Assembly: GCF_001571145.1 (NCBI RefSeq)
Contig: NZ_BCTF01000003.1
Location: 186,001 to 250,000, forward strand
Origin: Hydrogenophaga flava NBRC 102514
GTDB taxonomy: Bacteria > Pseudomonadota > Gammaproteobacteria > Burkholderiales > Burkholderiaceae_C
DNA length: 64,000 nt
Direction of reading: 5' to 3'
In this document: positions 11,018 through 51,937 of the stretch, in pieces
Layout of the letters: every line of letters begins with the position of its first letter
Numbering within the stretch: position 1 is the stretch's first letter
Program-made: the position numbers and the translations under genes
The notes under the pieces: generated by a model
Databases searched by the model: none
Told to the model about the DNA's origin: nothing
What the model saw: only the letters and a program-made list of their open reading frames with translations

Positions 11018-11257
11018 TCACTGGGTGCTGACGCGGGTGTAGTCGTTCATGCCGTACTGGGCACGCGCCTTAAGCTGCTGCTCCCAGCTGGCCTTGTCGC
11101 CGACCGTCCAGCCCGGCTGCTGGTACTGGCTCTTGCCGACGCCGGTGTAGGGCGCGGTGTCCTGTCGCACACCGGTGGTTTCCTGCGGCTTCTCGCCACA
11201 GGCGGAGAGGACCGCGGCAGACGCCAACAGCCCGAGGATTGTCAGGGTCTTGCGCAT
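11018..11257 (-). CDS. Small lipoprotein within the formate dehydrogenase operon
   Basis: 79 residues from the ATG at 11257, which overlaps the stop of fdh3B (TGATG); a GTG one codon earlier is also possible. The signal LTILGLLASAAVLSAC ends in a lipobox. The mature part is hydrophilic (KSQYQQPGWTVGDKASWEQQLKARAQYGMNDY), without recognised domain. Tight coupling to the beta and gamma subunits suggests a membrane-anchored accessory component facing the periplasm. Function unknown. Confidence 0.85.
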   Translation of the reverse strand: MRKTLTILGLLASAAVLSACGEKPQETTGVRQDTAPYTGVGKSQYQQPGWTVGDKASWEQQLKARAQYGMNDYTRVSTQ

Positions 11258-11862
11258 CACGACTTGGTCCCTCCCTGTGCGGTGCCGTAGGCCGTGCCCC
11301 AGCCCCAGACTTCGGCGCCCTTGCCACGGCGCAGCACGCGGCTGCGGAAGATGTCAGCCACCACGTCGCCGTCGCCGGCGAGCAGGGCCTTGGTCGAGCA
11401 CTGCTCGGCGCAGGCCGGCAGCTTGCCTTCGGCCAGGCGGTTGCGGCCGTACTTCTCGAACTCGGCTTCGCTGCCGTGCTCCTCCGGGCCACCGGCGCAG
11501 AAGGTGCACTTGTCCATCTTGCCGCGCACACCGAAGGTGCCCGAACTGGGGAACTGCGGTGCGCCAAAGGGGCAGGCGTAGCTGCAGTAGCCGCAGCCGA
11601 TGCAGACGTCCTTGTCGTGCAGCACCACACCTTCGTCGGTGCGGTAGAAGCAGTTGACCGGGCAGACCGCCATGCAGGGCGCATCGCTGCAGTGCATGCA
11701 GGCCACCGAGATCGACTTCTCGCCGGGCACGCCATCGTTGAGCGTGACCACGCGGCGGCGGTTCACGCCCCAGGGCACCTCGTGCTCGTTCTTGCAGGCG
11801 GTGACGCAGCCGTTGCACTCGATGCAGCGCTCGGCGTCACAGATGAATTTCATTCGTGCCAT
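11257..11862 (-). CDS. fdh3B: Formate dehydrogenase beta subunit, FDH3 type
   Basis: 201 residues carrying four [4Fe-4S] cluster motifs: CIECNGCVTAC (about 13-23), CMHCSDAPCMAVCP, CIGCGYCSYACP, and a split set KCTFCAGG...ACAEQC. It wires electrons from the alpha subunit to the cytochrome b subunit. Unlike E. coli FdnH (about 290 residues) it has no C-terminal membrane helix, as in the short FDH3 form. ATG at 11862 gives MARMKFICD; an internal ATG three codons in is equally possible. It follows fdhA by 11 bases. Confidence 0.96.
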   Translation of the reverse strand: MARMKFICDAERCIECNGCVTACKNEHEVPWGVNRRRVVTLNDGVPGEKSISVACMHCSDAPCMAVCPVNCFYRTDEGVVLHDKDVCIGCGYCSYACPFGAPQFPSSGTFGVRGKMDKCTFCAGGPEEHGSEAEFEKYGRNRLAEGKLPACAEQCSTKALLAGDGDVVADIFRSRVLRRGKGAEVWGWGTAYGTAQGGTKS

Positions 11863-11873
11863 CGTGCGTCTCC

Positions 11874-14834
11874 TTATGCTTTCTCGACGTTGCAGACCGT
11901 CGTCTTGGTTTCTTGCATCATGGTCACGATGTCGTAACCGTAGGTGGTCGAGGTGTTGATGGCCTCGCCGCGCACCACCGGCATCGCGCCGCTCGGGTAG
12001 TAGGCTTTCATGTCCTCGCCCTGCCAGCGGCCGGAGAAGTGGAAGGGCATGAACACCGTGTGCTCGTCCACCCTCTCGGTCACCAGGGCCTGCACGTTCA
12101 GGCGCGCACCGGTGGGGGTGCTGACCCAGACGCGCTCGCCGTTGCGGATGCCGCGGGCCGCCGCGGCGGCCGGGTTGAGCTCGATGAACATCTCCTGCTG
12201 CAGCTCGGCCAGCCAGGGGTTGGAACGCGTCTCTTCGCCGCCGCCCTCGTACTCGACCAGGCGGCCCGAGGTCATGATGAACGGGAATTTCTCGTGGACC
12301 TTGTCCTCGATGTTCTTCTGCTGCAGCGACTTGTAGAGGATGGGCAGGCGCCAGCGGTTCTTCTGGTCGTCGTGGCTGGGGTACTTGGCCACAAGGTCGG
12401 GACGGATGCCGTAGATCGGCTCACGGTGCTGCGGGATGCCGTCGGGGAAGTTCCAGACGATGGCGCGCGCCTTGGCGTTGCCGAACGGGTGGCAGCCGTG
12501 GGCCATGGCCACGCGGATGATGGCGCCCGTGGGGTCGGTCTTCCAGTTCTTGCCTTCGGCCTTGGCCTTCTCGGCATCGCTCAGGTCGTCCCACCAGCCC
12601 AGCTTCTTGAGCAGCAGGTGGTCGAACTCGGGGTAGCCGGTGGTGATCTCGGAGCCCAGCGAGTGCGAGCCGTCCTCGGCCAGCAGGCTCACGCCGTCCT
12701 TCTCCACGCCGAAGTTCGCGCGGAAGTTGCCACCGCCATCCATCACGTGCTTGGACGTGTCGTACAGGTTGGGCGAACCGGGGTGCTTGATCTCCGGCGT
12801 GCCGTAGCAGGGCCAGGGCAGGCCGAAGTAGTCACCCGACATGTCGTAACCGGTCTCCTTGTCCACCACCTTGCCCTTGCACTTGAGCGTCTTCACGTCG
12901 AAGGCGCCCATGTTGCGCATGTGGGCCTTCAGGCGCTCGGGGCTCTGGCCGGTGTAGCCGATGGTCCAGACGCTGCGGTTGATCTCACGCAGGATGTCCT
13001 CGACCACGGGCTCGTCCATGCCCTTGACCTGCTGCATCTTGTAGTTCTTGCACAGTTCCTTGTCGAAGCCCAGCTTCTGCGCGAACTGGTACATGATCAT
13101 GTGGTCGCTGCGGCTCTCCCACAGCGGGTCGATCACCTTCTCGCGCCACTGGATGGAGCGGTTGGATGCGGTGCAGGAACCGCTGGTCTCGAACTGCGTG
13201 GCCGCCGGCAGCAGGTAGACCGCGCGGTCGGGGTTCAGGTCTTCCGGCTTGCCGGGCATGGCCGCCATGGCCGCGGTGGCCGACGGGTACGGGTCCACCA
13301 CCACCAGCAAGTCCAGCTTGTCCATCGCGCGCTTCATCTCCAGACCGCGGGTCTGCGAGTTGGGCGCATGGCCCCAGAAGAACACGCCGCGCAGGTTCGG
13401 GCCCTGGTCGATCAGCTCGTTCTTCTCCAGCACACCGTCGATCCAGCGCGAGACGGTGATGCCGGGCTTTTCCATCATGCCCTCGGCGTACTGGGCCTTG
13501 ATCCAGTCGTACTCCACACCCCAGGTGGCTGCGAAGTGCTTCCAGGAACCGGCGGCCAGACCGTAGTAGCCGGGCAGCGAATCGGGGTTGGGGCCGACGT
13601 CGGTCGCGCCCTGCACGTTGTCGTGGCCGCGGAAGATGTTGGTGCCGCCACCGCTCTTGCCCACGTTGCCCAGCGCCAGTTGCAGGATGCACGAAGCGCG
13701 CACCATGGCGTTGCCGATGGTGTGCTGCGTCTGGCCCATGCACCACACGATGGTGGCGGGCTTGGCCTCGGCCAGCATCTTGGCCACCTTGGCCATCTGC
13801 TCTTCCTTGACGCCACAGGCCTCTTCGACGGCCGCTGGAGTCCACTTGGCCAGCACCTCCTCACGCACCTTGTCCATGCCATAGACACGGTCGTTGATGT
13901 ACTGCTTGTCTTCCCAGCCGTTCTTGAAGATGTGGTGCAGCAGACCAAACAGGAAGGGGATGTCGGTGCCCGAGCGGATGCGCACGTACTCGTCGGCCTT
14001 GGCGGCCGTGCGGGTGAAGCGCGGGTCCACCACGATCATCTTGCAGCCGTTTTCCTTGGCGTGCAGCATGTGCAGCATGGACACCGGGTGCGCCTCGGCG
14101 GCATTGGAGCCGATGTACAACGCGCACTTGCTGTTCTGCATGTCGTTGTACGAGTTGGTCATCGCGCCATACCCCCAGGTGTTCGCGACGCCGGCCACCG
14201 TGGTGGAGTGGCAGATGCGCGCCTGGTGGTCGCAGTTGTTGCTGCCCCAGAAGCTGACGAACTTGCGCAGCAGGTAGGCCTGTTCGTTGTTGTGCTTGGA
14301 CGAACCGATGAAGTAGACCGAATCCGGGCCGCTGGCCTCCTTCAGCGCCTTCATCTTGGCGGTGATCTCTTCCAGCGCCTGGTCCCAGCTGATCTTCTGG
14401 TACTTGCCGTTGACCAGCTTCATCGGGTAGCGCAGGCGGTACTCGCCGTGGCCGTGCTCGCGCAGGGCCGCGCCCTTGGCGCAGTGCGACCCGAGGTTGA
14501 TCGGCGAGTCGAACACCGGTTCCTGGCGCACCCAGACGCCGTTCTCGACGATGGCATCGGTCGCGCAACCCACCGAGCAGTGGGTGCAGACGGTGCGCTT
14601 GACTTCGATCTTGCCGGTGCCGTCGATCGAGCCACCCGAAGCGGCCTTGGCCTTCTTGACCAGGGTCAACTGCGAGGCGGCGATGCCGACGCCGACACCC
14701 AGGCCCGAGCGGCGCAGGAACGAGCGGCGATCCATGGTGGGCAGTGCCGACGCCAGGCCGCGCTGCAGGCTGTGAACAAAGGCGTGGCTGCGGCCGGTGG
14801 CGGCCGCGCCCGCTGATTTTTTGGTGAGCAACAT
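11874..14834 (-). CDS. fdhA: Formate dehydrogenase alpha subunit, Cys-type, TAT-exported
   Basis: 986 residues. Catalytic Mo/W-bis-MGD subunit oxidising formate to CO2. An N-terminal region with twin-arginine motif DRRSFLRR (35-42) and hydrophobic stretch points to TAT export to the periplasm. The [4Fe-4S] ligands are Cys83, 86, 90 and 118. The catalytic residue is Cys208 in QARICHSTTVAG, followed by His209; the equivalent E. coli FdnG position is selenocysteine, and no in-frame TGA is present here. The bis-MGD binding domains fill the rest, ending RWQGEDMKAYYPSG. I start at MLLTKKSAG; the frame runs 239 residues further up into intergenic DNA. Met34 is an alternative start. Confidence 0.97.
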   Translation of the reverse strand: MLLTKKSAGAAATGRSHAFVHSLQRGLASALPTMDRRSFLRRSGLGVGVGIAASQLTLVKKAKAASGGSIDGTGKIEVKRTVCTHCSVGCATDAIVENGVWVRQEPVFDSPINLGSHCAKGAALREHGHGEYRLRYPMKLVNGKYQKISWDQALEEITAKMKALKEASGPDSVYFIGSSKHNNEQAYLLRKFVSFWGSNNCDHQARICHSTTVAGVANTWGYGAMTNSYNDMQNSKCALYIGSNAAEAHPVSMLHMLHAKENGCKMIVVDPRFTRTAAKADEYVRIRSGTDIPFLFGLLHHIFKNGWEDKQYINDRVYGMDKVREEVLAKWTPAAVEEACGVKEEQMAKVAKMLAEAKPATIVWCMGQTQHTIGNAMVRASCILQLALGNVGKSGGGTNIFRGHDNVQGATDVGPNPDSLPGYYGLAAGSWKHFAATWGVEYDWIKAQYAEGMMEKPGITVSRWIDGVLEKNELIDQGPNLRGVFFWGHAPNSQTRGLEMKRAMDKLDLLVVVDPYPSATAAMAAMPGKPEDLNPDRAVYLLPAATQFETSGSCTASNRSIQWREKVIDPLWESRSDHMIMYQFAQKLGFDKELCKNYKMQQVKGMDEPVVEDILREINRSVWTIGYTGQSPERLKAHMRNMGAFDVKTLKCKGKVVDKETGYDMSGDYFGLPWPCYGTPEIKHPGSPNLYDTSKHVMDGGGNFRANFGVEKDGVSLLAEDGSHSLGSEITTGYPEFDHLLLKKLGWWDDLSDAEKAKAEGKNWKTDPTGAIIRVAMAHGCHPFGNAKARAIVWNFPDGIPQHREPIYGIRPDLVAKYPSHDDQKNRWRLPILYKSLQQKNIEDKVHEKFPFIMTSGRLVEYEGGGEETRSNPWLAELQQEMFIELNPAAAAARGIRNGERVWVSTPTGARLNVQALVTERVDEHTVFMPFHFSGRWQGEDMKAYYPSGAMPVVRGEAINTSTTYGYDIVTMMQETKTTVCNVEKA

Positions 14835-14851: not shown

Positions 14852-15070
14852 TCAGATCCGGGTGGTCTTGTAGTACTGCTTGACGTGATCGGTCAGGCTG
14901 TAGCCACCGCCCCGCTCGGGGGCCGGACGGGGCGCGGCCTCGGGTTCCGGTGTGCCCTGCGTGCCGGGCAGCAGGCTGGCCGCCGCGGCCAGCGCACCGG
15001 CGGTGCCAGCGCCCGCAAACAGCGTGCGGCGGTTCAGGCGGCCTCGGGATTCGGGTTGGGGCTTGCTCAT
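14852..15070 (-). CDS. Formate dehydrogenase region TAT-signal peptide protein
   Basis: 72 residues, first gene of the operon. It has a twin-arginine signal (RGRLNRRTLFAGAGTAG) and a short tail ending YSLTDHVKQYYKTTRI. Proteins of this kind are found next to FDH alpha genes as 'formate dehydrogenase region TAT target'; their role is unproven, perhaps a small subunit or export partner. The ATG at 15070 is preceded by AGGAG at seven bases' distance, much better than the upstream ATG at 15328. Seventeen bases separate it from fdhA. Confidence 0.88.
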   Translation of the reverse strand: MSKPQPESRGRLNRRTLFAGAGTAGALAAAASLLPGTQGTPEPEAAPRPAPERGGGYSLTDHVKQYYKTTRI

Positions 15071-15279: not shown

Positions 15280-15383
15280 CCCAACACATCCCCCAACAAC
15301 GGCATCCGGGCTTTGAACCACCCTCCAAACCACCTGTTCCAAGGGATTACCCGCAGCTCCGGCACCGCAACCACCCCTCGTGG

Positions 15384-15396
15384 CGACAGGCTGTCG
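15384..15396. promoter_or_regulatory. Upstream activator palindrome 1
   Basis: CGACAG-G-CTGTCG, a perfect palindrome with a single centre base (15390). It shares the core CGACA(G/A)-N-(C/T)TGTCG with the second palindrome; centres are 22 bases apart, two helical turns. It lies about 138 bases upstream of the predicted fdh start, the usual place for an enhancer-binding activator. Confidence 0.65.
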
Positions 15397-15403
15397 AGAC
15401 CGG

Positions 15404-15420
15404 CGCGACAAATTGTCGCG
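15404..15420. promoter_or_regulatory. Upstream activator palindrome 2
   Basis: CGCGACAA-A-TTGTCGCG, 8-bp perfect arms around position 15412. Probable stronger binding site of the same dimeric regulator, about 160 bases upstream of the predicted fdh start and about 100 upstream of the regulator's start codon, so it could also act in autoregulation. Confidence 0.65.
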
Positions 15421-15430
15421 AGCCGCTGCA

Positions 15431-15455
15431 CACCGCCACCGCTGCACTGGCGGTG
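15431..15455. other. Inverted repeat in the regulator leader
   Basis: CACCGCCA and TGGCGGTG form perfect 8-base arms around a nine-base loop. There is no T-run. It could fold in the mRNA leader of the regulator or bind a protein. A further palindrome ATTGGCGCCAAT lies at 15467-15478. Confidence 0.45.
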
Positions 15456-15520
15456 CGCGCTGTCGGATTGGCGCCAATATCCGAGTGAATTGCTCCACCT
15501 CCTCCGTAGAATGCCGTCGG

Positions 15521-16926
<1,406 letters not shown>

Positions 16927-16927
<1 letters not shown>

Positions 16928-18963
16928 TGAGACTGCCCACGCCGCGCTGGCTCGCCACCTCGGTGCGCAACAAGCTGCTGGCGATGGCGCTGCTGCCGCT
17001 GCTGGTGGTGTTCCCGCTGCTGGTGCTGGCGATCGCGGTGTGGAGCAGCGTCACCTACGACCGCCTGCTCATCACCAAGGTGCGCAGCGACCTGGCCGTG
17101 GCGCGCGGCTACTTTGACCAGACCCTGGCCGAGGTGGGCAGTGGCACGCGCGGCGTCGCGCGCTCGCAGCGCCTGCTGCAGGCCATGGCCGGCGGCGACC
17201 TGGCCGCACGCCTGGCCGCTGACCGGCAGGAGCTGGGGCTGGACTTCCTGCTGCTCATGCGCCACGACGACCCGCGCGCCACACTGCCCTCCGGGGTGGC
17301 CTCGCTGCTGCAGACGACCATGACGACGCCCGCAAGGTCGGCGCAGATCGTGCGCCTTTCGCGCGACGAACTCGCGGCCCTCGCCCCGCAACTGCTGCCG
17401 CGCCTGCACATCCCGCTGGTGAGCACGCGCAACGCCGCGCCCGATGCCCGCGCCACGGAAGACCGCGCCCTGGTGCTGCTGGCGCTGCAGCCGGTGCTGG
17501 ACGCCGCTGGCCAGCCCCAGGCCCTGCTGGTGGGCGGCCTGCTGCTCAACCAGAACCTGGACTTCATCGACCACATCAACCGTATCGTCTACCCCGACGG
17601 CGCCCTGCCCTTCGGCAGCGAGGGCACGGCCACCCTGTTCCTGGACGACGTGCGCATCACCACCAACGTGCGCCTGTTCCAGGACCAGCGCGCCATCGGC
17701 ACGCGCGTGTCGCAGACCGTGCGCGACCGCGTGCTCGGCCAGGGCCAGACCTGGCTGGACCGCGCCTTCGTCGTCGACGACTGGTACGTCTCGGCCTACG
17801 AACCGCTGCTGGACGCCGCGGGCCAGCGCGTGGGCATGCTCTACGTTGGCTTTCTGGAATCACCCTTCCGCTGGGTGCGCCACGCCATGCTGGCCGTCAT
17901 CGGCCTGATCTTCCTGGCGGTGATGGCGGTGTCGGCCTGGTTCTCGGTGCGCTGGGCGCGCAGCATCTTCCGCCCGGTGGAGCAGATGAACCGCACCATG
18001 CAGCGCGTGGAAGATGGCGAGAGCGCCGCCCGCGTGGGTGCGCTGCCGGCGCGCGACGAGCTCGGCGCCCTGGCCAGCCACCTGGACCAGCTGCTGGACG
18101 TGATCGACGAGAAGACCACCGCGCTGCGCCGCTGGGGTGAAGAACTGGATCTGAAGGTGGCCGAGCGCACGCGCGAGCTGAAGCAGAGCAACGCCTCGCT
18201 GCGGCTGGCGCAGCAACAGCTCGTCAAGAGCGAGAAGCTAGCCGCCATCGGCCAGCTCACGGCCAGCATCGCGCACGAGATCAACAACCCGATCGCGGTG
18301 ATGCAGGGCAACCTCGACCTGATCCGCGACACCCTGGGCCCGCAGGCCCAGCCGGTGACAGCCGAATTCAAACTGCTGGACGAACAGGTCGAGCGCATGC
18401 GCCTGATCGTCACCCAGCTGCTGCAGTACGCGCGGCCCACCGAGTACGCCGGCTATGTGGAGACGCTGGACCTCAACCAGACCGTGCACGACAGCCTGGT
18501 GCTGGTGGCGCACCTGCTGGCGCAGACCCGCATCGAGGTGGTGCGCGATCTGCAGGCCACGCAGCGCGTGGGCCTGAACCGGCAAGAGCTGCAGCAGGTC
18601 ATCATCAACCTGCTGATCAACGCCATCCAGGCCATGCCGCAGGGCGGCACGCTGCGACTGCTCACACGGGACTGGGCCGACGAGCACGGCGCGTGCGGTG
18701 CGCTGCTGCAGGTGCAGGACTCGGGTCCGGGGCTGGCACCGGGCGTGGCCGAGCGCCTGTTCCGGCCCTTCTTCACCACCAAGAACGACGGCAACGGGCT
18801 GGGCCTGTGGATCAGTCTGGGGCTGGTGGAGCGCTACGGTGGTGGCATCGTTGCAGGCAACCGGGAGGATGGCCACAGCGGCGCGGTGTTCAGCGTGCGG
18901 CTGCTGACCGAGCCGCAGGCGCCGGCGGCGGTGAACACACGGGACGGACGGCCCGGCGGATGA
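16927..18963 (+). CDS. Sensor histidine kinase, partner of the sigma-54 regulator
   Basis: 678 residues. Membrane helix 1 about 18-40, a large periplasmic sensor domain 41-318 of Cache-like character, helix 2 about 319-341, HAMP (to about 395), a coiled coil, HisKA with phospho-acceptor His450 (SIAHEINNP), and a HATPase domain with N box Asn565 (NLLINAIQAM), DSGPGLAPG and GNGLGLWIS (from 623). It phosphorylates the coupled regulator. The ligand is unknown; its extracytoplasmic location would suit formate or another small carboxylate, which is only inference. The ATG at 16927 overlaps the regulator stop codon. Confidence 0.95.
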
Positions 18964-21574: not shown

Positions 21575-21601
21575 GCGCAGGCCATGCACCGGCGGCGCGC
21601 C

Positions 21602-22084: not shown

Positions 22085-22185
22085 GACAGCCTTTCAGGAC
22101 CGGAAACGGCCGATCACGCCATTCACATGGAGCCGCACCACCCAACTTCAAGCGTGCGGGGCACTGCCTGGCTGCAGGCCTGTCC

Positions 22186-22803
22186 TCAGGCCATCAGGTC
22201 GAACCCCTGCGCTTCCACGCTGACAAAGGCCGCCGTGAAGCCGGCCAGCGCGGCGTAGAACCGTGCCCTGGGGTGAGCGCTGATGGCCTCACACATGGCG
22301 GGCACCCAGGGCTGTACGTGGGCGCTGAAGAACTTCTGCTGCTGGGTGAGGTTGGCCACTTCCACGTCGTCACCGGCGATCAGGTAGCGCATGACTTCAC
22401 ACACGCAGGCGAAGTGGTCCTCGGTCTCGGGCATGGCCTCGTCGCGCGCCAGGCCCAGGGCGGCCAGGTCGCTGCGCAGCGCGGCCAGCGGCTTTTCGTT
22501 CAGGAAGCCGCTGAGGTAGAACGAACCGAACAGGTAGACCTCGGGCTTGCCGACGCCGCCGAACAGCGCGTCGTATTCGTTCGCCACCTGTTCGTCGCTG
22601 AGGTCGCGCACGGTGCCGACGAACTGGCGCCAGGGTTCTTCGAGGAAACCGCCGGCCGCGGGCGCTTCGGTCACGGCCACGCGCAGCTGGGCCAGCAGTT
22701 CGGAGCCGGGCGGCGCGTAGTACAGCGCGGCCAGCAGGCCGTACACCTCGGCGCGGGCGGTTTCTTCGTCGAGGGCGGAGGACACGGGGATCGGTTCGTT
22801 CAT
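22186..22803 (-). CDS. TorD/DmsD-family molybdoenzyme chaperone
   Basis: 205 residues from the ATG at 22803. Helical protein with the family features AEVYGLLAALYYAPP at the start, NEYDALFGGVGKPEVYLFGSFYLSG in the middle and EDHFACVCEVMRYLI. TorD-like chaperones bind TAT signals of molybdoenzymes and hold the apo-enzyme until the cofactor is inserted. Position at the end of the accessory operon, with a TAT-exported FdhA nearby, makes FdhA the likely client. Six bases separate it from the polyferredoxin stop. Confidence 0.92.
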   Translation of the reverse strand: MNEPIPVSSALDEETARAEVYGLLAALYYAPPGSELLAQLRVAVTEAPAAGGFLEEPWRQFVGTVRDLSDEQVANEYDALFGGVGKPEVYLFGSFYLSGFLNEKPLAALRSDLAALGLARDEAMPETEDHFACVCEVMRYLIAGDDVEVANLTQQQKFFSAHVQPWVPAMCEAISAHPRARFYAALAGFTAAFVSVEAQGFDLMA

Positions 22804-22808
22804 GGCGT

Positions 22809-24923
22809 TCACAGATCGGAGATGCGGGACTCGCCCGGGTTCGAATAGATGTCCACCACACGGCAGTCGCCGCACATCTTCAGGCGTTCCAGCGCTTCGC
22901 CCTGGAACATGGCGTGGCCGCTGAGCTTGGCGAGCATGACCTCGATGCCCTTGAGCGTGCCAAAGGGTTTGCTGCAGCGGATGCACTGGTAGGGCTGCGC
23001 TTCGTTGAGCACGCGCGGCTGGCGGCGTTCGTCGCTGAGCAGCAGGCGCGGCTGCAGGGTGATGGCGTTTTCAGGGCAGGTGGTGGCACACAGGCCGCAC
23101 TGCACACAGTTCTTCTCGATGAAGCGCAGCTGGGGGCGCTCGGCGTTGTCCTGCAGGGCGCTGGCCGGGCAGGCGCTGACGCAGCTCAGGCACAGGGTGC
23201 AGGCGTCGCGGTTGATGTTGAGGCTGCCGAAAGGTGATGCTGCGGGCAGCGCAATGGCGGCTTCTTTCGTGCGGTTCGCGCGGCTGGCGCTGTCCTGCAG
23301 CAGGTGGTCCAGCGCGAGGTCCAGCGTGGCGCGCTTTTCGGGCTGCACCGCAAAGCTGGCCGCCTTGGTGACGCCTTGCGCCGGCGCCTCGCCCAGCTCG
23401 GCATCGAGCAGCGGCAGGTCGCGCGCGTCGCGCACCTCGATCAGCTTGAAGTGGCGGCCGCTGTAGCCCAGCGCCTGCACGATGGATTCGGCCACGGCCA
23501 TCTGCTCGCGCAGGGCCTCGTGGTACTGCGGCGCTTCTTCGCCGGTCATCAGCACCCAGACCTGGCGCGCGCCGTAGGCAAACGCGGTGAGCCAGAGGTC
23601 GATGCCGGTGGAGGATGTATGCCACAGCGGCAGCGGGATGACGCGGGCGGGCACGCCGCGCACACTCTTGTCCAGCTGCGCCAAACGTCCGAGGTCGTTG
23701 ACCAGGGCGGCGCCCGCTTCCTGGCTGTGCAGCAGCAGGGCCGCGTCCTGGCCACCGGCCTTGGCGTAGGTGGCCAGCAGGGTGCGCAGCTTCACGCCCT
23801 GCTCGCTGGCGCGCGGGTAGGCATAGCTCAGGGCGCCGGTGGGGCAGACGGTGGTGCAGGTGCCGCAGCCGACGCAGAGGTTGGGGTTGACGACGATCTG
23901 GTTGCGCTTGAGGTCGCTGCTGATGGCCGAGGCCGAGCAGACGTCCACGCAGGCGTTGCAGCCCACGCTCTGGTTGCGGCCGTGGGCGCAGACCTTCTGC
24001 TTGTAGGTGAAAAACCTCGGTTTCTCGAATTCACCGACCAGATCGCGCAGCTGGGTGACGGCGCGCACCTGGGCCAGGGCATCGGCCGTGGGCGGCAGGT
24101 GCACATAGCCCTGTGGCAACGCGTGCTGGGTGAAGCCGGGCGCGTCGCGCAGGTCGAGCACGAGGTCGAAGCTCTCTTCGCGTTCCTGCGTGTCGCGCTG
24201 GAAGTTGATAGCGCCGACCGCCTCGCACGCCTTGACGCAGGCGCGGTGCGATTTGCAGAGCGACAGGTCCACCTGGTAGTCGAGGCCGATGGCGCCTTCG
24301 GGGCAGGCGGCCACGCAGGCGTTGCAGCGGGTGCAGAGGTCCAGGTCGATCGGGTTGCTGGTGTTCACCGTCACGGCGAATGCACCCAGCCAGCCCTGCA
24401 GGCGGTGCAGCTGGCCGGCGAGCACCGGGTACAGGCGCGCCTGCTGCCCGCTGCCGCCAGTGGGCAGCAGGGTCACGTCCAGCGCGTCGCTGACCAGCGC
24501 GGCCATGGCCTCGGCGCGCTCCAGCGGGCCGATGATCAGCAGGCGGCCTTCGCTGTTGTAGGTGACGGTGGGCACGGGCTCGGCATCGGGCAGGCGCGCG
24601 GCGGCCAGCAGGGCCGCCATCTTCGGCGTGGCCTGCGGTGCCTCGCGGCCCCAGCCGCCGGTTTCGCGGATGTTGACGAAGCGGATCGGCCGCACGTCCA
24701 GGTCCACCGCGCCTTCGGTCTGGGTCGAGAGCTCACTGAACAGCCGGCTCTCCTGCGTGCAGGCCACTACCAGGTCGTCGCGGCTGCGGCAGGCCTTCTG
24801 GAAGGCGGGCGCCTCGCGCCGACACAGCGTGGTGTGCAGGCTCAGGTCTTCATCCAGAGCCCGGCCCAGGGCCTTCGGGTCCAGGGGCATGGTCTGGTTG
24901 CAGTTGCAGATCAGCGTGGTCAT
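22809..24923 (-). CDS. Large polyferredoxin of the formate dehydrogenase accessory operon
   Basis: 704 residues, cytoplasmic (no signal or membrane helix). An N-terminal domain with scattered Cys (ICNCNQTM) leads into CTRCNACVAACP (197-208) and a second partial set CKSHRACVKAC. Then come a Cys group near 315-335, CVGCGTCTTVCP near 349, a cluster-free domain of about 200 residues, CTLCLSCVSACP near 577, CVQCGLCATTCP near 607, and two C-terminal CxxC pairs (CIRC, CGDC). It could hold at least five [4Fe-4S] clusters. Probably an electron carrier or scaffold for formate dehydrogenase maturation; the exact role is unknown. It overlaps the DUF3306 gene by 74 bases. Confidence 0.92.
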   Translation of the reverse strand: MTTLICNCNQTMPLDPKALGRALDEDLSLHTTLCRREAPAFQKACRSRDDLVVACTQESRLFSELSTQTEGAVDLDVRPIRFVNIRETGGWGREAPQATPKMAALLAAARLPDAEPVPTVTYNSEGRLLIIGPLERAEAMAALVSDALDVTLLPTGGSGQQARLYPVLAGQLHRLQGWLGAFAVTVNTSNPIDLDLCTRCNACVAACPEGAIGLDYQVDLSLCKSHRACVKACEAVGAINFQRDTQEREESFDLVLDLRDAPGFTQHALPQGYVHLPPTADALAQVRAVTQLRDLVGEFEKPRFFTYKQKVCAHGRNQSVGCNACVDVCSASAISSDLKRNQIVVNPNLCVGCGTCTTVCPTGALSYAYPRASEQGVKLRTLLATYAKAGGQDAALLLHSQEAGAALVNDLGRLAQLDKSVRGVPARVIPLPLWHTSSTGIDLWLTAFAYGARQVWVLMTGEEAPQYHEALREQMAVAESIVQALGYSGRHFKLIEVRDARDLPLLDAELGEAPAQGVTKAASFAVQPEKRATLDLALDHLLQDSASRANRTKEAAIALPAASPFGSLNINRDACTLCLSCVSACPASALQDNAERPQLRFIEKNCVQCGLCATTCPENAITLQPRLLLSDERRQPRVLNEAQPYQCIRCSKPFGTLKGIEVMLAKLSGHAMFQGEALERLKMCGDCRVVDIYSNPGESRISDL

Positions 24924-25488
24924 CGTGGGTCTCTTGTGGGGCTGCCGCGTCTGGCGCGCGGGTGTCTTGGGGGGCCGGCAAGGGCTCGGCGCTGGCGCTG
25001 GGCGTCGCTTCGCTGGCGGCGCTCTCGGCCTTTTTGGCTTGCTGCTCTTCGGGGTCGTCGACCAGTTTCAGGAACTGGGCGCTGACCATCTGGGCCATCA
25101 TCGCGGCGGGGATGGGTTCGGTCTTGGTGTAGTCGTCGATGTAGATGTCCAGCCCGTCCATCACGTTGAAGTGCGGATCGGCGAACAGTTTCTTGACGGC
25201 GGCGTTGCGCACTTCGGGCGGTACGTCCTTGGCCACGAAGCGGCGGAAATCGGAGGCCGGCGTGAGGTGCTGCGTGTCTTCCAGCGTGGGCGCCGGCGGG
25301 GCTTCCGCGGCCTCGGGCGCGGGTGCAGCGGCCACCTCTTCGGGCGGCACAAGCGGGGCTGCGGCCGCAGCAGACGGCACAGAGGGCGCCACCGGCGCGG
25401 CGGGCTCGGGCAACGGCTCGCCCGTGCGGGCCTGCGCCTTGCGGCGCGACCAGCGCGAGAGGAATCCGTCGTCGCCGGCGGTGCTCAT
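24850..25488 (-). CDS. DUF3306 protein, formate dehydrogenase accessory operon
   Basis: 212 residues starting MSTAGDDGFLSRWSRRKAQ, the family's typical opening. An Ala/Pro linker (about 30-70) leads to the conserved core SDFRRFVAKDVPPEVRNAAVKKLFADPHFNVMDGLD...YTKTEPIP, then a low-complexity tail. Function unknown; the family accompanies formate dehydrogenase genes. Its start overlaps the amidotransferase stop (ATGA). The last 24 codons overlap the polyferredoxin frame, so the end of the protein may be under relaxed constraint. Confidence 0.88.
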   Translation of the reverse strand: MSTAGDDGFLSRWSRRKAQARTGEPLPEPAAPVAPSVPSAAAAAPLVPPEEVAAAPAPEAAEAPPAPTLEDTQHLTPASDFRRFVAKDVPPEVRNAAVKKLFADPHFNVMDGLDIYIDDYTKTEPIPAAMMAQMVSAQFLKLVDDPEEQQAKKAESAASEATPSASAEPLPAPQDTRAPDAAAPQETHDDHADLQLQPDHAPGPEGPGPGSG

Positions 25489-26285
25489 GCGGAATTGCGG
25501 TGGCGGTCCGCCCGTTCGCGCGTGGCCTGCAGGAAAGCTTCCATCAGCGGACCGCTGTCGATCAGGCCCTGGCGGGCCTCGGTGGGCAGCAGGTGGAACT
25601 CGGGGTGCCATTGCAGGCCGAGCACGAAGCCCGGCCCGGTGGCGCGGATGGCCTCGATCACACCGTCCTGCGGGCACCGGGCCTCAACGACCAGCCCATC
25701 GCCCAGGCGGTCCACACACTGGTGGTGGATGCTGGTGACCCGGTGCACCGCAGAGCCGTACAGCCGGTCGAGCAGCAGGCCCGGTTCAAAACGCACCTCG
25801 TGCTGCAGCCGGTCGTAGTGAGCCAGGTCCTGGTGCAGCACCGGACTGCGGCGTTGCGAAGGAATGTCCTGCAGCAGCGTGCCACCGTGGTACACGTTGA
25901 TCAGCTGCGCGCCGCGGCAGATGCCCAGCACCGGCTTGCGCGCCTCGATGAAGCCGCGCAGCAGGGCCAGCTCGTAGCGGTCGCGCACCGGGTCGCCCGC
26001 CCATTCGGGCTGTAGCAGCGTGCCACCGTAGGTTTCGGGGCAGACATCGACACCACCCTGCAGCACCAGACCGTCGAGCAGGTCCACCACCTCGCTCGCA
26101 GGCACGCGGTTGACCAGGTGGGGGCTGTTTTCATCCACGAACGGCACCATGAGCGCGATCGCGCCGTGGGCCATCACCCAGTGCGCCATGGAGCTCTCAA
26201 GGAACTGCAGGCGCTTCTGCGGCAGGCCGAGCCCCGGCGGGGGTTCGTGCAGCAGCCGCGCACTGATGCCGATGCGAAGCATCAT
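25485..26285 (-). CDS. Class I glutamine amidotransferase-like hydrolase (PuuD family)
   Basis: 266 residues. The class I glutamine amidotransferase triad is visible: nucleophile Cys in LGICRGAQLINV and His-Pro-Glu in LGLQWHPEF. The closest recognised type is gamma-glutamyl-GABA hydrolase (PuuD) and related peptidase C26 proteins, which cleave gamma-glutamyl amides. It overlaps both neighbours by four bases (ATGA), so it is translationally locked between DUF3305 and DUF3306. No polyamine genes are near. Its substrate in this setting is unknown. Two adjacent ATGs (26285, 26282) are possible starts. Confidence 0.9.
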   Translation of the reverse strand: MMLRIGISARLLHEPPPGLGLPQKRLQFLESSMAHWVMAHGAIALMVPFVDENSPHLVNRVPASEVVDLLDGLVLQGGVDVCPETYGGTLLQPEWAGDPVRDRYELALLRGFIEARKPVLGICRGAQLINVYHGGTLLQDIPSQRRSPVLHQDLAHYDRLQHEVRFEPGLLLDRLYGSAVHRVTSIHHQCVDRLGDGLVVEARCPQDGVIEAIRATGPGFVLGLQWHPEFHLLPTEARQGLIDSGPLMEAFLQATRERADRHRNSA

Positions 26286-26926
26286 CTGGATCCTCCCCCG
26301 CTGTGGCGCGGGCCCACTTTGTCGGTGCTCACGCGGGCCGGCTGGCCGAACCGGTCGGTCAGCGGCTGGAAGCTGTCGGGCCGCTTGCGGCGCTTGGGCT
26401 CGATGTGGTGGTGCTCGGCCACAAAGGCCTGCAGCCACTCGACCACCTCGGGCGAGGCGGGCACCTGGTCCACCTTTTCCTGCGCATCGAGCCAGCGGCC
26501 GGCGTCGTGGTAGCTGAGCGTGGCAATCTGCGGCACGGCCATGGACTCGCCATCAATCAGCCGTTCCTCGTCGGCGCGCCAGAACACCCAGAAACACGGC
26601 GACGGGCTGTTGAGATTCAGAAAGTAGCCTTCAGCGTCGTCGCGGTACAGGGTGGCGCGCAGGCCGGTGAACAGCCAGTAGCGCGCGCCCTCCACCACCA
26701 CCGCACCCGGCAGCGGCTGGACCTCGCGCGGTGCACCGGCCACCGGTTCGGGGGCACCCACGGGTACCTCGCCGGGGGCCCCGGCCGCCATCACGTCGGC
26801 CAGCACCCAGCGCCAGGGCTGCCACCGCGCCATCGGTCCCATGACGGGCTCGCGCCGCATCACCACGTCCACCGGCAGACAGGGGCGCCCGGACGGCGAC
26901 GGAGAAACTTGTGCTTCGGCATTCAT
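26282..26926 (-). CDS. DUF3305 protein, formate dehydrogenase accessory operon
   Basis: 214 residues. Conserved core of the DUF3305 family: VDVVMRREPVMGPMARWQPWRWVLADV, LNLNSPSPCFWVFWR, and EVVEWLQAFVAEHH. The family is found with formate dehydrogenase genes and has no known activity. I start at MNAEAQVSP (26926); the further upstream frame is non-coding promoter DNA. First gene of the accessory operon; its stop overlaps the start of the amidotransferase-like gene. Confidence 0.9.
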   Translation of the reverse strand: MNAEAQVSPSPSGRPCLPVDVVMRREPVMGPMARWQPWRWVLADVMAAGAPGEVPVGAPEPVAGAPREVQPLPGAVVVEGARYWLFTGLRATLYRDDAEGYFLNLNSPSPCFWVFWRADEERLIDGESMAVPQIATLSYHDAGRWLDAQEKVDQVPASPEVVEWLQAFVAEHHHIEPKRRKRPDSFQPLTDRFGQPARVSTDKVGPRHSGGGSR

Positions 26927-27066
26927 AGGACAACGGACTGTACGCCAAGGCGATGGACGGCTGTATCTGCAGGGTGAATGACCAGCTCGTCCTGTACGGA
27001 GGACCTGCCTCGGTGTAATCTGCGTGAGTTTTCGCACAACAAAACCCCATATGTCTCCGCCTTGCC

Positions 27067-29493
27067 ATGTCTTCAGCCCCGTCGTTGCTCGATCAGTGCT
27101 TTGACCGGGTGCTCAGGGAGGCGCCAGCCCTGCTGGGCCGCTGCCTGAACGTGACGGTGGCGGCGCTGCAGGACGCGGAAAACCAGAGCCGCGAGGTGGC
27201 GCAGCGGACCCTACTGGCACGCGCCTGGTTCAGCCTGGAACGCCAGCGCAACCAGCTGACCGCCCAGTTCCCGCTGCGCCTGCAGCAGGCCTTCCAGCGT
27301 GGTGACCACGACGGGCCCACCTCGTCTCTGGGGCGCATGTCCGACTCGTCCCTGCTGGCGTTGGTGGATGACAACTCGATCAACGAGTCGCTGGAGGCGG
27401 CCCGCATGCTGCAGGCGCTGCTGCCGGTGGTCGAACAGTCGCTGTCGATGGTGGATGCCCGCATGAGCTCGCTCATCGGGCTTGACACCGTGCACGCCGA
27501 GAAGAACCCGCTGCGACCCTCTGTGTTCGTGCGCACACTGCGCGACCTGATGGCCGAGCGCGAGACCGACCCGCAGTTGCGCAGCCTGTGGATGCAGAAG
27601 GTGGTCGCCCCGCTCGCCAAGGAGCTGAGCCAGCTCTATGGCCAGGTGGCCCTGATGCTGCAGCAGGCGCGCGTGCAGGAGGCGGGCTACCGCATCCGCC
27701 TGGTGGCCGACGGCGCGCCCCAGACGGCGCCCCACCTGTCCACGCGCGGCTGGCTGGAAGAAGGCACGCCCTCCGAGCGGGCCGGGCTGGGCCTTGCCCG
27801 GGAGGGGCAGGATGCCCCCGCACCGCCGATGTCGCTGCGCATGAAGGACCTGGCGCGCACCCAGACACCGCTGCAGCACGAGGTGCTGCAGGCCTTCATG
27901 GCGGGTGAGCAGGCGGTGTTCGACCACCCGCTGGACAACGCGTATTTCGAGCAGGTGCGCCAGGAACTGCACCACGTCGATCTGCTGGCCCGGCTGCCCC
28001 AGCCCGCGCCCGAGGAGCTGGAGCAGGAGCGCACGCGATACCGCGACCTGCCCGTGGTGGAGCGCCCGGCGCGGCCGGTCGATGTGGCGTCGCCGCTGGA
28101 TGCGGAGCAGTGGGGCGACTACGCCGCGCCGCACGAACGCACCCGCGTCCTGCTGGAACTCAAGCACCAGGCCGACAAGGTGTCACAGGCGGTCGGTCTG
28201 GACGTGGTGCGCAAGCTGGTCAACCAGGTCTCGGGCGATCCGCTGCTGCTGGCGCCGGTGCGCGAGGCGGTAGTGGCCCTGGAGCCGGCGCTGCTGCGCC
28301 TGGCCATGGCCGAGCCGCGCTATTTCAGCCGCAACGACCACCCGGCGCGCCTGTGGATCGAGGCGGTGGCCCAGCGCAGCTTCCGCTACAACGACGAGTT
28401 CTCGCCCGGCTTCGAGGCCTTCTTCGAACCGGTGCGCGAGCAGGTCCGTTCGCTCAACGACAGCGGGTCGGTCGACGCCGAGCCCTTCGCCTCCGCCCTG
28501 GACGAGCTCAAGGCGCAGTGGGCGAGCGACGACGAGGCCCAGGAGCAGCGCCGGCAGCGGCAGTTGCAGGCGCTGAACTTCGCCGAGCGGCGCCAGGAGC
28601 TGGCGGACCAGATCGCCTGGGAAATCAGCCACCGGCCCGACCTCTACGACGCGCCCGCCATCGTGCTCGACTTCCTGTACGGCTCGTGGTCGTTGGTCAT
28701 CGCCTCGGCCGAGCTGCAGCACCCAGGCAAGGGGCCGGACCCGTTTGGTTACCGAAAGGTCATCGGCCACCTGCTGTGGAGCACGCGCAGCCAAGTGACC
28801 CTGCGCCAGCCCAGCCAGCTGTTCCAGATCGTGCCCGGCATGCTGATGACCCTGCGCCAGGGGCTGGAGAGCCTGGGCCAGTCACCCGACGAAACCCGGA
28901 CCTTCTTTGACGCGCTGCTCAAGCTGCACGAACCCGTGCTGCGCCTGCGGCGCGCCCGCGCCCGGGTGGACGGCCACACCACGGCGCTCACGCCCGAGGC
29001 AAGCGATTCGGAACAGCAGGCGCTGGCCACCCTGCTGGCACCTGCCTCACCCGAGCAGCAGAAACCCACCCCGCGCGATCAGCCCTGGATCGGCGCGCGC
29101 GAACTGGCCAGCGCCGGTTTCAGTGAGACCATGCCGCTCACCAGCAGCGAAGCTTCTGAGGGGGCGGAGGTGGTCGAAGCGTTCGAAGAAGCCGCTGGCG
29201 CCACCGACGCGGAAGCGAACGCGGACGCGGTGGAACCGGCTCTGATGCTCGCGCGCATGACGACCGGCACCTGGGTGGACCTGTACTCCGGCGGCGAATG
29301 GCTGCGTGCGCAGCTGGTCTGGAGCAGCCAGAAAGCCAGCCTGTTCATGTTCACCAGCCTGGGCGGTCGCACCCACACCATGACGCGCCGCAGCTGCGAG
29401 AAGCTGATGGGCAAGCGCTGGCTGCGCTTGGTCGAAACCCGGCCGGTGATGGCGCGGGCGCTGGACCAGGTCGTGACCGCCGAGGCTCAGTAG
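27067..29493 (+). CDS. DUF1631 family protein
   Basis: 808 residues, soluble and mainly helical with many Arg/Glu/Leu. Typical DUF1631 content: the opening [17 protein letters not shown], the middle [44 protein letters not shown], and a C-terminal PilZ-like stretch ([24 protein letters not shown]) near 740. Some databases call members 'thymidine phosphorylase', but I see no such domain. The PilZ-like end might bind cyclic di-GMP, an inference. It is divergent from the accessory operon and its end overlaps that of boxA by seven bases. Confidence 0.88.
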
Positions 29494-30776
29494 GTTTCCA
29501 GGTGCAGGCGGCCTTCGCGCTTGAGCGCGGTGCCGACCTCGTCCCAGTTCAAGCCGGCCCCGGTGGCGATGTCGCGCAGCGCCAGCACCACGCCCTCTTC
29601 CATCGCCTTGAGGCCGCAGACATAGAAGCAGGCGTTCGGGTCCTGCAGCAGCTGCGCCAGGTCGGCGGCGCGCTCGCGCATCGCGTCCTGCACATAGCGC
29701 TTGGGCTGGCCCGGCGTGCGGCTGAACGCGAAGTTGCTGTCGATGAAGTCTTTGGGCAGGCTCTGCAGCGGGCCGAAGTACGGCAGCTCTTCCTGCGTGC
29801 GGGCGCCGAAGAACAGCATCAGCTTGCCGCCCTCGAACTTGCCGCTGGCGCGCAGCCGGCGGCGCCACTCGGTCATAGCGCGCATGGGGGCCGATCCGGT
29901 GCCGGTGCAGATCATGACGATGCTGGACTTCGGGTGGTTGGGCATCAGGAAGCTGGTGCCGAACGGTCCGATCACCTGCACCGTGTCGCCCACCTGCAGG
30001 TCGCACATGTAGTTGCTGGCCACCCCGCGCACCGGCTGGCCCGAATGGTCTTCGAGCACGCGCTTGATGGTCAGCGACAGGTTGTTGTGTCCGGGCCGCT
30101 CGCCGTTGCGCGGGCTGGCGATGCTGTACTGGCGCGCGTGGTGCGGCTTGCCCTGCGCATCGGCGCCGGGCGGCACGATGCCGATGCTCTGGCCTTCGAG
30201 CACCGGGAAGGGCATGGGGCCGAAGTCCAGCACGATGTGGTGGGTGTCGTAGTCCTTGCCGACCGCGGTGACGCGCAGGTTGCCGACCACGGTGGCGGTC
30301 ACGGTCTTCTGTGCAGCCTTGGGGCCATAGAGGTTGGTGTAGGCGTGGGCGGCGCTCCACGGCGGGATGGTGGCGCCGTACTGGGCGGAGTTGAAAGCGG
30401 TCTGGCCGCTGGGGTCGGGAACGGGGGCCAGCTCGGGCTCGGCGACTGCGGCGGCCACAGGTTCACCGGCGTCGGCGGCCGCGGCGGCCAGGTCCGCGGC
30501 CGGGATCTCGGCGGGCAGCTCGTCCCAGCCGAGCTGCTCCTCAAGCGAGTAAGCCTTGGCACGCACCACGCGGCGGTAGTTGTCGATGGAGCCGGTGGGG
30601 CACGGCGAGATGCAGTCGTTGCACCAGTTGCACTTGCTGACGTCGACGACGTAGTTGCGCGAGTCGTGGGTGATGGCGCCGACCGGGCAGATCGATTCGC
30701 AGGTGTTGCAGCGGATGCAGATCTCGGGGTCGATCAGGTGCTGCTTGATGACGGCGGCTTCCAGGGGGGCGTTCAT
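29487..30776 (-). CDS. boxA: Benzoyl-CoA 2,3-epoxidase reductase component BoxA
   Basis: 429 residues. Two [4Fe-4S] ferredoxin motifs at the N-terminus ([24 protein letters not shown]; about 20-62), an Ala/Pro linker to about 130, then a ferredoxin-NADP reductase-like domain with FAD-binding [16 protein letters not shown]-binding [10 protein letters not shown] and [10 protein letters not shown]. BoxA takes electrons from NADPH and feeds the oxygenase BoxB during aerobic benzoate breakdown. It is the last gene of boxC-boxB-boxA, separated from boxB by 206 bases with a palindromic element. Confidence 0.97.
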
Positions 30777-30850
30777 CTTGGGTCTCCGTTGCTGTGCTCT
30801 TGTGGTGCTCTATTGTGTTGCTGGTGTTGACTTCGTGGTGGCACCGCGTG

Positions 30851-30932
30851 AACCCGGGTGGCTGACTCCCTTCGTGTCCCCCGCCGGCCTGCGGCCGGCT
30901 CCTCCTTTACCTCACTGCGCCAGCCACCCGGG
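30851..30932. repeat. Nested palindromic element between boxB and boxA
   Basis: Outer arms CCCGGGTGGCTG and CAGCCACCCGGG (12 bases, perfect) enclose an inner perfect hairpin GCCGGCC-TGC-GGCCGGC at 30883-30899. Total about 82 bases. It resembles mobile palindromic intergenic elements. In the transcript it would form a very stable stem between boxB and boxA and could lower boxA expression or protect the boxB end. Confidence 0.7.
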
Positions 30933-30982
30933 CTTACGCTCGCGGGCTCGCGTGCGTGAAAGCCCAGGCAGATTCTGGCCGC

Positions 30983-32410
<1,428 letters not shown>

Positions 32411-32448
32411 GCTGGTCTCCTGCGGGTGGGGTGGATCGGTGGTGGGGC

Positions 32449-34119
32449 TTAGACGCGGTTGAAATCGAACTGGGCCTTGTCGCCCTTGCCATAGACCTTG
32501 AGCGCACCCTTTTCGCCGACGGCGTTGGGGCGCTGGAAGATCCAGTTCTGCCAGGCGGTCAGGCGGCCGAAGATGCGGGTGAACATGTTTTCCTTCTGCG
32601 CGAAACGCAGGTTGGCTTCGAGGCCGGTCAGGGCGTCGGGCGACATGGCGGCGCGCTCTTCCAGCGCCAGGCGGATCTCGTCGGCCCAGTCGATGTCGTC
32701 GGGCGCGGCGGTCACCAGGCCCAGCTTCAAGGCGGCGTCCCCGTCGAGTGCCTGACCGATGGCGCCACGCGCGGCTTCCATCGGGGCGGTTTCTTCATAG
32801 AAGCGGCGCTGCAGGCGGCTCTGGTCGTTGACCATCGGCAGGTAGCCGAAGTTCATCTCGCCCAGGGTCAGCACCGGCTGCTTCTGGGGCTCGTCGGGCA
32901 GCACCAGCATGTAGGCGCGGTCGGCGCAGAAGGCCAGCTCGGCCAGCGTGCCGGCGAAGCACGAGCCCGGCTCCAGCAGGGCGAACAGGCTGCGCGAGGA
33001 CACATCCAGGCGGGCGAAGGTGCGGCGCAGGTGGCCGATGGTCTCGTTGACGAACCAGTGGTCCTTGTTCGCCAGCATCAGCGCGTCGTTGGCCAGCACC
33101 GCGGCGCTGTCGCCCTCGGTCTTGAGCAGCCAGGTGCCGATGTCCAGCTCGTTGGTGCGCATGTGCAGGATGGCGTCGTCCAGTTCGCGCACCATCTGCA
33201 GGGCGTACCAGTTGGCGCCCAGGGCCTCGATGCCGGCGATGTCGGTCGGCTGCGCACCCTGCGGGGCCTTGACGGTGAAGGTGGCGGTGCGCTTGGCGCG
33301 GTCGATCTCGACCGTGACGTTCGTGTAGGTCAGGCGGTCGCCGTCGATGCTGCGGTTCAGCGGGGTCAGAGCCACAGGCTTGGCACCGGCCGCACCGCGG
33401 TGGCTGCCTGCGGCCAGCTTCTCGGCGCGTTCGCGCACGGCCTGCTGGAACACGGCGGGCTTGGCGATGGCGTCCACCAGGCGCCAGTCCACGGCCTTCT
33501 GGCCGCGCACGCCTTCCACGCTGGTGCAGAAGATGTCGGCCAGGTCGTGGCGCACATGGCGCTTGTCGGTCACGCGGGTCAGGCCGCCGGTGCCGGGCAG
33601 CACGCCCAGCAGCGGCACCTCGGGCAGGCTGACCGAGCTGCTGCGGTCGTCCACCAGCACGATCTCGTCGCAGGCCAGGGCCAGTTCGTAGCCGCCGCCA
33701 GCGCAGGCGCCGTTGAGCGCGGCGACGAACTTCAGGCCACTGTGCTGGCTGCTGTCTTCAATGCCGTTGCGGGTTTCGTTGGTGAACTTGCAGAAGTTGA
33801 CCTTCCAGCCGTGGGTGGAAAGGCCGAGCATGAAGATGTTGGCGCCGGAACAGAACACGCGGTCCTTCAGGCTGGTGACCACCACCGACTTGACTTCGGG
33901 GTGCTCGAAGCGGATGCGCTGCAGCGCGTCGTGCAGCTCGATGTCCACGCCCAGGTCGTAGCTGTTGAGCTTGAGCTTGTAGCCAGGGCGCAGGCCGGCG
34001 TCTTCGTTGATGGCCAGCGACAGCGTGGCGATGGCGCCGTCGAACGACAGGCGGATGTGCTGGTAACGGGACGGGTCGGTCTGGTAGTCGACGCGGGGGG
34101 CGCTGGCGGTGGCGGTCAT
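32449..34119 (-). CDS. boxC: 2,3-epoxybenzoyl-CoA dihydrolase (benzoyl-CoA-dihydrodiol lyase) BoxC
   Basis: 556 residues. Crotonase-superfamily enzyme that hydrolytically opens the epoxide ring to 3,4-dehydroadipyl-CoA semialdehyde and formate. Features include the crotonase stretches FVAALNGACAGGGYELALACDEIVL and VPLLGVLPGTGGLTRV. The release of formate provides a metabolic tie to the formate dehydrogenase genes in this window. I start at MTATASAPRVDYQ (34119), preceded by GGAGACC; the frame's extra upstream codons include the promoter. Confidence 0.98.
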   Translation of the reverse strand: MTATASAPRVDYQTDPSRYQHIRLSFDGAIATLSLAINEDAGLRPGYKLKLNSYDLGVDIELHDALQRIRFEHPEVKSVVVTSLKDRVFCSGANIFMLGLSTHGWKVNFCKFTNETRNGIEDSSQHSGLKFVAALNGACAGGGYELALACDEIVLVDDRSSSVSLPEVPLLGVLPGTGGLTRVTDKRHVRHDLADIFCTSVEGVRGQKAVDWRLVDAIAKPAVFQQAVRERAEKLAAGSHRGAAGAKPVALTPLNRSIDGDRLTYTNVTVEIDRAKRTATFTVKAPQGAQPTDIAGIEALGANWYALQMVRELDDAILHMRTNELDIGTWLLKTEGDSAAVLANDALMLANKDHWFVNETIGHLRRTFARLDVSSRSLFALLEPGSCFAGTLAELAFCADRAYMLVLPDEPQKQPVLTLGEMNFGYLPMVNDQSRLQRRFYEETAPMEAARGAIGQALDGDAALKLGLVTAAPDDIDWADEIRLALEERAAMSPDALTGLEANLRFAQKENMFTRIFGRLTAWQNWIFQRPNAVGEKGALKVYGKGDKAQFDFNRV

Positions 34120-34181
34120 GGTGGTCTCCTGGGTTCTGGGCGGTGGCCGGTCGGGATGCACTGGACATCCGATGGATGTGA

Positions 34182-34211
34182 ATAATAGTGCATGCATCGC
34201 AGCGCAGTCAA
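34182..34211 (-). promoter_or_regulatory. Probable boxCBA promoter
   Basis: Minus-strand -35 TTGACT (34211-34206), 18-base spacer, -10 TATTAT (34187-34182). Start expected near 34175, giving a leader of about 55 bases before boxC. TGCA boxes flank the -35 and fill the spacer, the placement expected of a repressor site. Confidence 0.6.
34193..34206. promoter_or_regulatory. Imperfect BoxR operator in the boxC promoter spacer
   Basis: TGCA-TCGCAG-CGCA: seven of eight bases match TGCA-N6-TGCA, lying between the -10 and -35 elements. The preceding TGCA at 34189 makes a direct TGCATGCA. Confidence 0.4.
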
Positions 34212-51909: not shown

Positions 51910-51937
51910 GAAGACATGCATTGTAGCACGGTTTTTT

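Follow-up and report, generated by a model that had tools for sequence, protein, structure and literature searches.

The window described here is a 64,000-nucleotide stretch of the Hydrogenophaga flava NBRC 102514 genome (contig NZ_BCTF01000003.1, positions 186,001 to 250,000; G000:C3:186001-250000), in which genes were identified from ORF calls and from Pfam and NCBIfam profile scores. Five tightly packed ORFs on the minus strand are found where a preliminary description had placed them, and Pfam backs each of their names. They encode a DUF3305 protein of 214 amino acids (26282..26926; PF11749, 140.5 bits against a cut-off of 25), a PuuD-like hydrolase of the Peptidase C26 family with 266 amino acids (25485..26285; PF07722, 179.2 bits, cut-off 20.5), a DUF3306 protein of 212 amino acids (24850..25488; PF11748, 123.6 bits, cut-off 25), a polyferredoxin of 704 amino acids with 32 cysteines (22809..24923; PF00037 and other Fer4 families) and a TorD-like chaperone of 205 amino acids (22186..22803; PF02613, 93.3 bits). 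The coordinates agree with the claimed four-base overlaps between the hydrolase gene and both DUF genes; the DUF3306 and polyferredoxin ORFs overlap by 74 bases, and a gap of 5 bases then precedes the TorD-like gene. A scan of positions 21500-27200 found no promoter-like site and a single terminator-like site, on the opposite strand, which is fewer than in shuffled sequences. Rfam and tRNA scans of the window detected two tRNAs, far from the operon; a tandem tRNA-Arg(acg) and tRNA-Met(cat) occupies positions 51833-52014.

The TorD-like protein scores 54.2 bits against the TorD equivalog (NF003442), short of the cut-off of 132; it does belong to the NarJ-type family PF02613, and is predicted to act as the chaperone of FdhA. 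The polyferredoxin exceeds the cut-off for RnfB (TIGR01944, 75.3 bits against 68.7), yet its best stretch covers only positions 110-165 of the 190 in the profile, so that the match is confined to the ferredoxin part. Its structural model has a mean pLDDT of 58. A FlpD-like resemblance in the middle part of the protein (E 0.12) is a mere hint; the polyferredoxin would presumably serve as an electron carrier in maturation. Four loci (L195, L201, L202 and L208) have shorter polyferredoxins of about 550-570 amino acids, which differ from the 700-residue form in having neither its CxCN part at the N-terminus nor one of its ferredoxin regions. For DUF3305, NCBIfam contains a named MobA protein that carries the domain, which hints at molybdenum-cofactor handling. 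The DUF3305 model, built with 16 close relatives, has a mean pLDDT of 72.5, and its best PDB match (E 0.61) is uninformative.

The formate dehydrogenase structural genes lie on the same strand in the window, about 7 kb beyond the accessory operon. They comprise a candidate for the small TAT-target protein found in formate dehydrogenase regions (72 amino acids, 14852..15070; TIGR02811, 37.2 bits and E 3e-9, below the cut-off of 48.45), the Cys-type catalytic subunit gene fdhA (986 amino acids, 11874..14834; TIGR01591, 474 bits and below the cut-off of 666, with PF00384 above its cut-off), a putative fdhB encoding an iron-sulfur subunit of 201 amino acids (11257..11862; assigned by place and cysteine pattern only), fdhC for the gamma (cytochrome b) subunit (9799..11007; TIGR01583, 165.2 bits, cut-off 115.85) and fdhD for a sulfurtransferase (8505..9383; NF001943, 133.8 bits, and TIGR00129, 132.4 bits, both below their cut-offs). 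FdhA has a cysteine at the catalytic place. The intervening region holds a DUF456 gene, a phosphoesterase gene, an ExoD-like gene, others, and a plus-strand two-component system (15380..18963) recognised by NtrC-type matches, with a sigma-54 regulator at 15380-16927 and a sensor kinase at 16894-18963, a relative of which has HisKA, HATPase and cache domains. In Hydrogenophaga, as well as in two further genomes (G603 and G493), this two-component system lies between the accessory operon and fdhA; 19 of 20 stretches from the order do not show this separation.

On the other side of the operon, a plus-strand DUF1631 gene (27067-29493; Pfam) is followed by three minus-strand ORFs (29487..34197), putatively boxA, boxB and boxC of the benzoate pathway. 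Box genes adjoin the accessory operon in many Hydrogenophaga (27067-34197 in the window; L180-L190 and L200). They are near it in two further genera of this family (L215 and L217), in which boxCBA lies about 5 kb upstream of DUF3305. Among the 11 stretches with the hydrolase gene embedded in the operon, box genes are found upstream in nine, as they are in G049; in the remaining two (L187 and L188) no box genes were detected in the 6-7 kb upstream.

The four genes other than the hydrolase are associated with formate dehydrogenase. FdhA was called with a query lacking its first 11 residues, at E 1e-200 in 200 genomes of the order and at E 1e-100 in 60 Hydrogenophaga genomes. The preliminary description had proposed a survey of co-occurrence with fdhA, and in the order sample the expectation is borne out for the core: DUF3305 occurs in 40 genomes and FdhA in 39, with both in 38 and one alone in three. 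It does not hold to that degree for the hydrolase, as only 12 of 30 hydrolase genomes have FdhA. In Hydrogenophaga, FdhA accompanies DUF3305 in all 45 genomes that carry the latter; both are missing from 11, and the four with FdhA alone are all less than 90% complete. Gene maps were made by tblastn with the window proteins and a few relatives, and may miss diverged genes. In 20 of the other 39 order genomes with DUF3305, the mapped stretches all (20/20) preserve the order DUF3305, DUF3306, polyferredoxin, TorD-like, FdhA, FdhC. In a phylum sample DUF3305 was detected in 61 of 398 genomes, and 19 further stretches of 15-20 kb from it all contain the polyferredoxin and FdhA (19/19), with the polyferredoxin on the other strand in eight (L218-L225); in these stretches tblastn does not always pick up DUF3305, DUF3306 or TorD.

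The unit in the window is the known accessory operon (DUF3305, DUF3306, polyferredoxin, TorD-like) of a Cys-type formate dehydrogenase. It had been put forward as possibly undescribed, but the accessible text of PMC4464133 already reports operons with DUF3305, DUF3306, fer4, a TAT peptide, TorD or DmsD, and fdhGHI; that of PMC10609526 mentions neither DUF3305 nor the polyferredoxin. The four accessory genes and the association with formate dehydrogenase are common to the fdhGHI operons and the window. The two differ in that the available text on the fdhGHI operons names no hydrolase, whereas the window has one inside the unit, and in that the structural genes in the window are split off by the two-component system and other genes.

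The family score given above places the hydrolase well within Peptidase C26, and the Cys and HPE (His-Pro-Glu) motifs are intact in all 88 hydrolase sequences compared. Cys123, His227 and Glu229 are all present in the window protein, as the preliminary description had it, and are presumably catalytic, by analogy with PuuD-type enzymes. The pN/pS ratio is below 0.4 in 13 of 13 hydrolase pairs tested, and the window protein is 95% identical to that of H. pseudoflava NBRC 102511, a species with the embedded arrangement. It shares its family and catalytic motifs with PuuD (PDB relative 6vtv, E 3e-19), but at 81.4 bits against an equivalog cut-off of 266 (NF008471) it was rejected as a PuuD gamma-glutamyl-GABA hydrolase, and it differs from PuuD further in its proposed partner, the ligase YbdK. 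Family, motifs and partner together suggest a predicted cysteine hydrolase that would open a gamma-glutamyl amide.

The position of this gene inside the accessory operon is limited to one clade. Outside it, no hydrolase match was found by tblastn in any of 39 DUF3305 stretches (20 from the order and 19 from the phylum), so that the hydrolase is not a general member of the DUF3305/DUF3306 operon. Orthologs in the order sample were taken as the 30 genomes scoring at least 179 bits, out of 61 at E 1e-20; DUF3305 is present in 12 of these 30 and adjoins the hydrolase gene in one of the 12, the window's own. The phylum sample gives a similar picture, with the hydrolase in 15 of 398 genomes (E 1e-40), DUF3305 as well in five, and adjacency in one of the five, again the window's own. 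Among the 60 Hydrogenophaga genomes, the embedded type (at least 71% identity) is found in 23, of which 20 have it between DUF3305 and DUF3306, a second type of 55-60% identity is found in 23, and 14 have no hydrolase. Recurrence of the order DUF3305-hydrolase-DUF3306 in 20 of 60 genomes is therefore not a matter of chance. The two types occur together once among the 60, in G245, a genome with 7% contamination; they are nearly exclusive, as if one had replaced the other. A genome from another genus of the family (G603) has a hydrolase 75% identical to that of the window near YbdK and thiL, with the accessory operon elsewhere and free of a hydrolase, and this arrangement is likely to represent the state before insertion.

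Within the genus, a hydrolase of any type is present in 42 of 49 genomes with FdhA as opposed to 4 of 11 without (p 0.002, kinship uncorrected), which counts against independence of the two; for the 38 best genomes the figures are 30 of 31 and 3 of 7. Of the seven genomes with FdhA and no hydrolase, six are less than 90% complete and one (G207) is 93% complete. The embedded type itself shows no association with FdhA, which is present in 20 of 23 genomes with this type and 29 of 37 without it (p 0.5).

Three Hydrogenophaga genomes (G216, G217 and G238; 99, 87 and 100% complete) retain an embedded-type hydrolase beside BoxA, although neither FdhA (at E 1e-100) nor DUF3305 gave a match in them. 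The hydrolase comes after BoxA in all three, and DUF1631 lies between them in two. Both flanks are visible in G217 only, where a two-component system follows the hydrolase as in FDH-positive relatives; the G216 contig ends about 1 kb past the hydrolase, and no two-component system was seen in the mapped stretch of G238. At E 0.1, no trace of DUF3305, DUF3306, TorD or FdhA was found near the hydrolase at the three loci. The polyferredoxin matches there fall on BoxA, and two short, low-quality matches in L173, one to FdhC and one to the regulator, are distant from the hydrolase. The pN/pS ratio is 0.12 for G216 against G217, and 0.32-0.38 for G238 against four others. A hydrolase tree of 61 of the 88 sequences (the 27 omitted being 7 near YbdK, 2 from Hydrogenophaga and 18 others), in which deep forks are open, forces at least two origins of the FDH-less state; so does a genus tree of YbdK, a quick one of 33 rows with a very long outgroup branch. 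Two of the losses of formate dehydrogenase thus look independent. Because the gene persists intact where FdhA has no match, it seems to be retained for something other than formate dehydrogenase.

A likely partner emerges from the neighborhoods of related hydrolases. Of the best 80 of 429 hydrolase relatives in named genomes, 21 are embedded, 3 are the solo copies of the FDH-less genomes, 35 are within 2.5 kb of YbdK and 21 have neither context, some of the latter being cut by contig ends. An antiporter match is present in all 35 of the loci with YbdK among these best 80, two examples of which were confirmed as PF00999, and thiL lies downstream in 13 loci of the same 80; for the YbdK of one locus (L096) the score is 598 bits (cut-off 425). 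A cation antiporter, YbdK and a C26 hydrolase recur together, often accompanied by an MscS channel or thiL, in L080, L086, L088-L090, L092-L097, L099-L108, L110-L114, L120, L123, L124, L129, L130, L134 and L138-L140. In the order sample, YbdK was counted in 59 genomes (G028 and G080, at less than 32 bits, were dropped from 61), and is found in 29 of 30 genomes with the hydrolase and 30 of 170 without it (Fisher p 2e-17, kinship uncorrected). FdhA is found in 12 of the 30 hydrolase genomes and in 27 of the other 170 (p 0.005, kinship uncorrected), an enrichment that also counts against independence of hydrolase and formate dehydrogenase. The hydrolase is within 3 kb of YbdK in 8 of the 30. In the genome of the window, YbdK is next to an antiporter on another contig; that the Hydrogenophaga hydrolase is not next to YbdK counts against the partnership.

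Pairs of this general kind have precedents. The accessible text of PMC2588565 describes a carboxylate-amine ligase gene adjoining one for a glutamine-amidotransferase-like hydrolase of the same fold, as with YbdK and the C26 hydrolase, although that ligase belongs to another family of GCS2 size. In the aniline pathway, as far as it is given in the available part of PMC4539516, a gamma-glutamylanilide ligase makes a gamma-glutamyl amide and a hydrolase reverses the step, as proposed here, but the ligase is glutamine synthetase-like, unlike YbdK. The literature searched, which mostly excluded subscription journals, gave no account of a neighborhood that joins YbdK, the hydrolase and an antiporter.

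The hydrolase, predicted from sequence to act on gamma-glutamyl compounds, is probably a partner of YbdK that was captured by the accessory operon and is independent of formate dehydrogenase. A Peptidase C26 gene would have been inserted into the known operon in Hydrogenophaga, where it would not serve formate dehydrogenase; its partner would be the YbdK encoded elsewhere. A YbdK-type ligase would make a gamma-glutamyl amide, and the inserted hydrolase may open it. From its seat in the operon the hydrolase may be expressed along with the genes of formate and benzoate metabolism, if the genes are indeed co-transcribed. A broader proposal, offered tentatively, is that YbdK, the C26 hydrolase and the cation antiporter, to which a mechanosensitive channel is often added, make up a gamma-glutamyl cycle in Burkholderiales that has not been described before. 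The amide made by YbdK would be removed by the hydrolase, and its level would be linked to ion transport. In Hydrogenophaga, the half of the cycle that degrades the amide may have moved into the benzoate/formate locus, so that catabolism of aromatics would set the level of the metabolite.

Alternatively, the hydrolase could belong to benzoate degradation by the box genes, where it might cleave, for instance, an aromatic amine conjugated to a gamma-glutamyl group. It stays next to BoxA at each of the three FDH-less loci, only 72 bases away in G238, nine of the 11 embedded stretches have box genes upstream, and a comparable hydrolase is used by aniline degraders according to the accessible text of PMC4539516. 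This reading is nevertheless unlikely, given the two embedded stretches in which the 6-7 kb upstream showed no box genes and the lack of a BoxA match in any YbdK-adjacent locus among the 80 best of the 429 relatives.

The preliminary description had suggested that the hydrolase may be part of a system for maturation of, or electron delivery to, formate dehydrogenase. A version in which it was recruited to that end within the clade, for instance to trim a gamma-glutamyl group off a cofactor or carrier, would account for the embedded order and tight spacing kept in 20 of 23 embedded-type genomes and for the enrichment with FdhA in both genus and order. It is a distinctly unlikely explanation in view of the absence of the hydrolase from all 39 other DUF3305 stretches, its retention beside box genes in the three genomes that gave no match to either FdhA or DUF3305, the other Hydrogenophaga that have DUF3305 and no embedded copy (L019 and L200), and an association with YbdK that is far tighter than that with FdhA. 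That the hydrolase is a chance passenger of little functional weight, kept only since its loss would disturb translation of the operon, would suit the overlapping start and stop codons of its neighbors and the Hydrogenophaga that have the 55-60% type elsewhere and no embedded one, but is very improbable for a gene that follows YbdK closely and persists under purifying selection after the operon is gone.

If the hydrolase is a partner of YbdK, the formate dehydrogenase maturation set loses a tempting part, and studies of DUF3305, DUF3306 and the polyferredoxin can leave it aside. YbdK, a ligase with weak known activity, would gain a candidate partner enzyme that is directly testable. The locus would also be a natural case of a gene that was taken up by an operon and then outlived it.

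The surroundings of the operon suggest a source of formate as well. According to the accessible text of PMC6449761, formate is a product of BoxC, and Azoarcus has genes for formate dehydrogenase near its box genes. Because BoxC yields formate and the box genes adjoin the operon, formate derived from benzoate is a likely substrate of the formate dehydrogenase in the window. A second formate dehydrogenase-like gene in the same genome (L231:3248-3250; G000:C2, about 138747) has an in-frame TGA where the window FdhA has its cysteine, as expected of a candidate selenocysteine codon.
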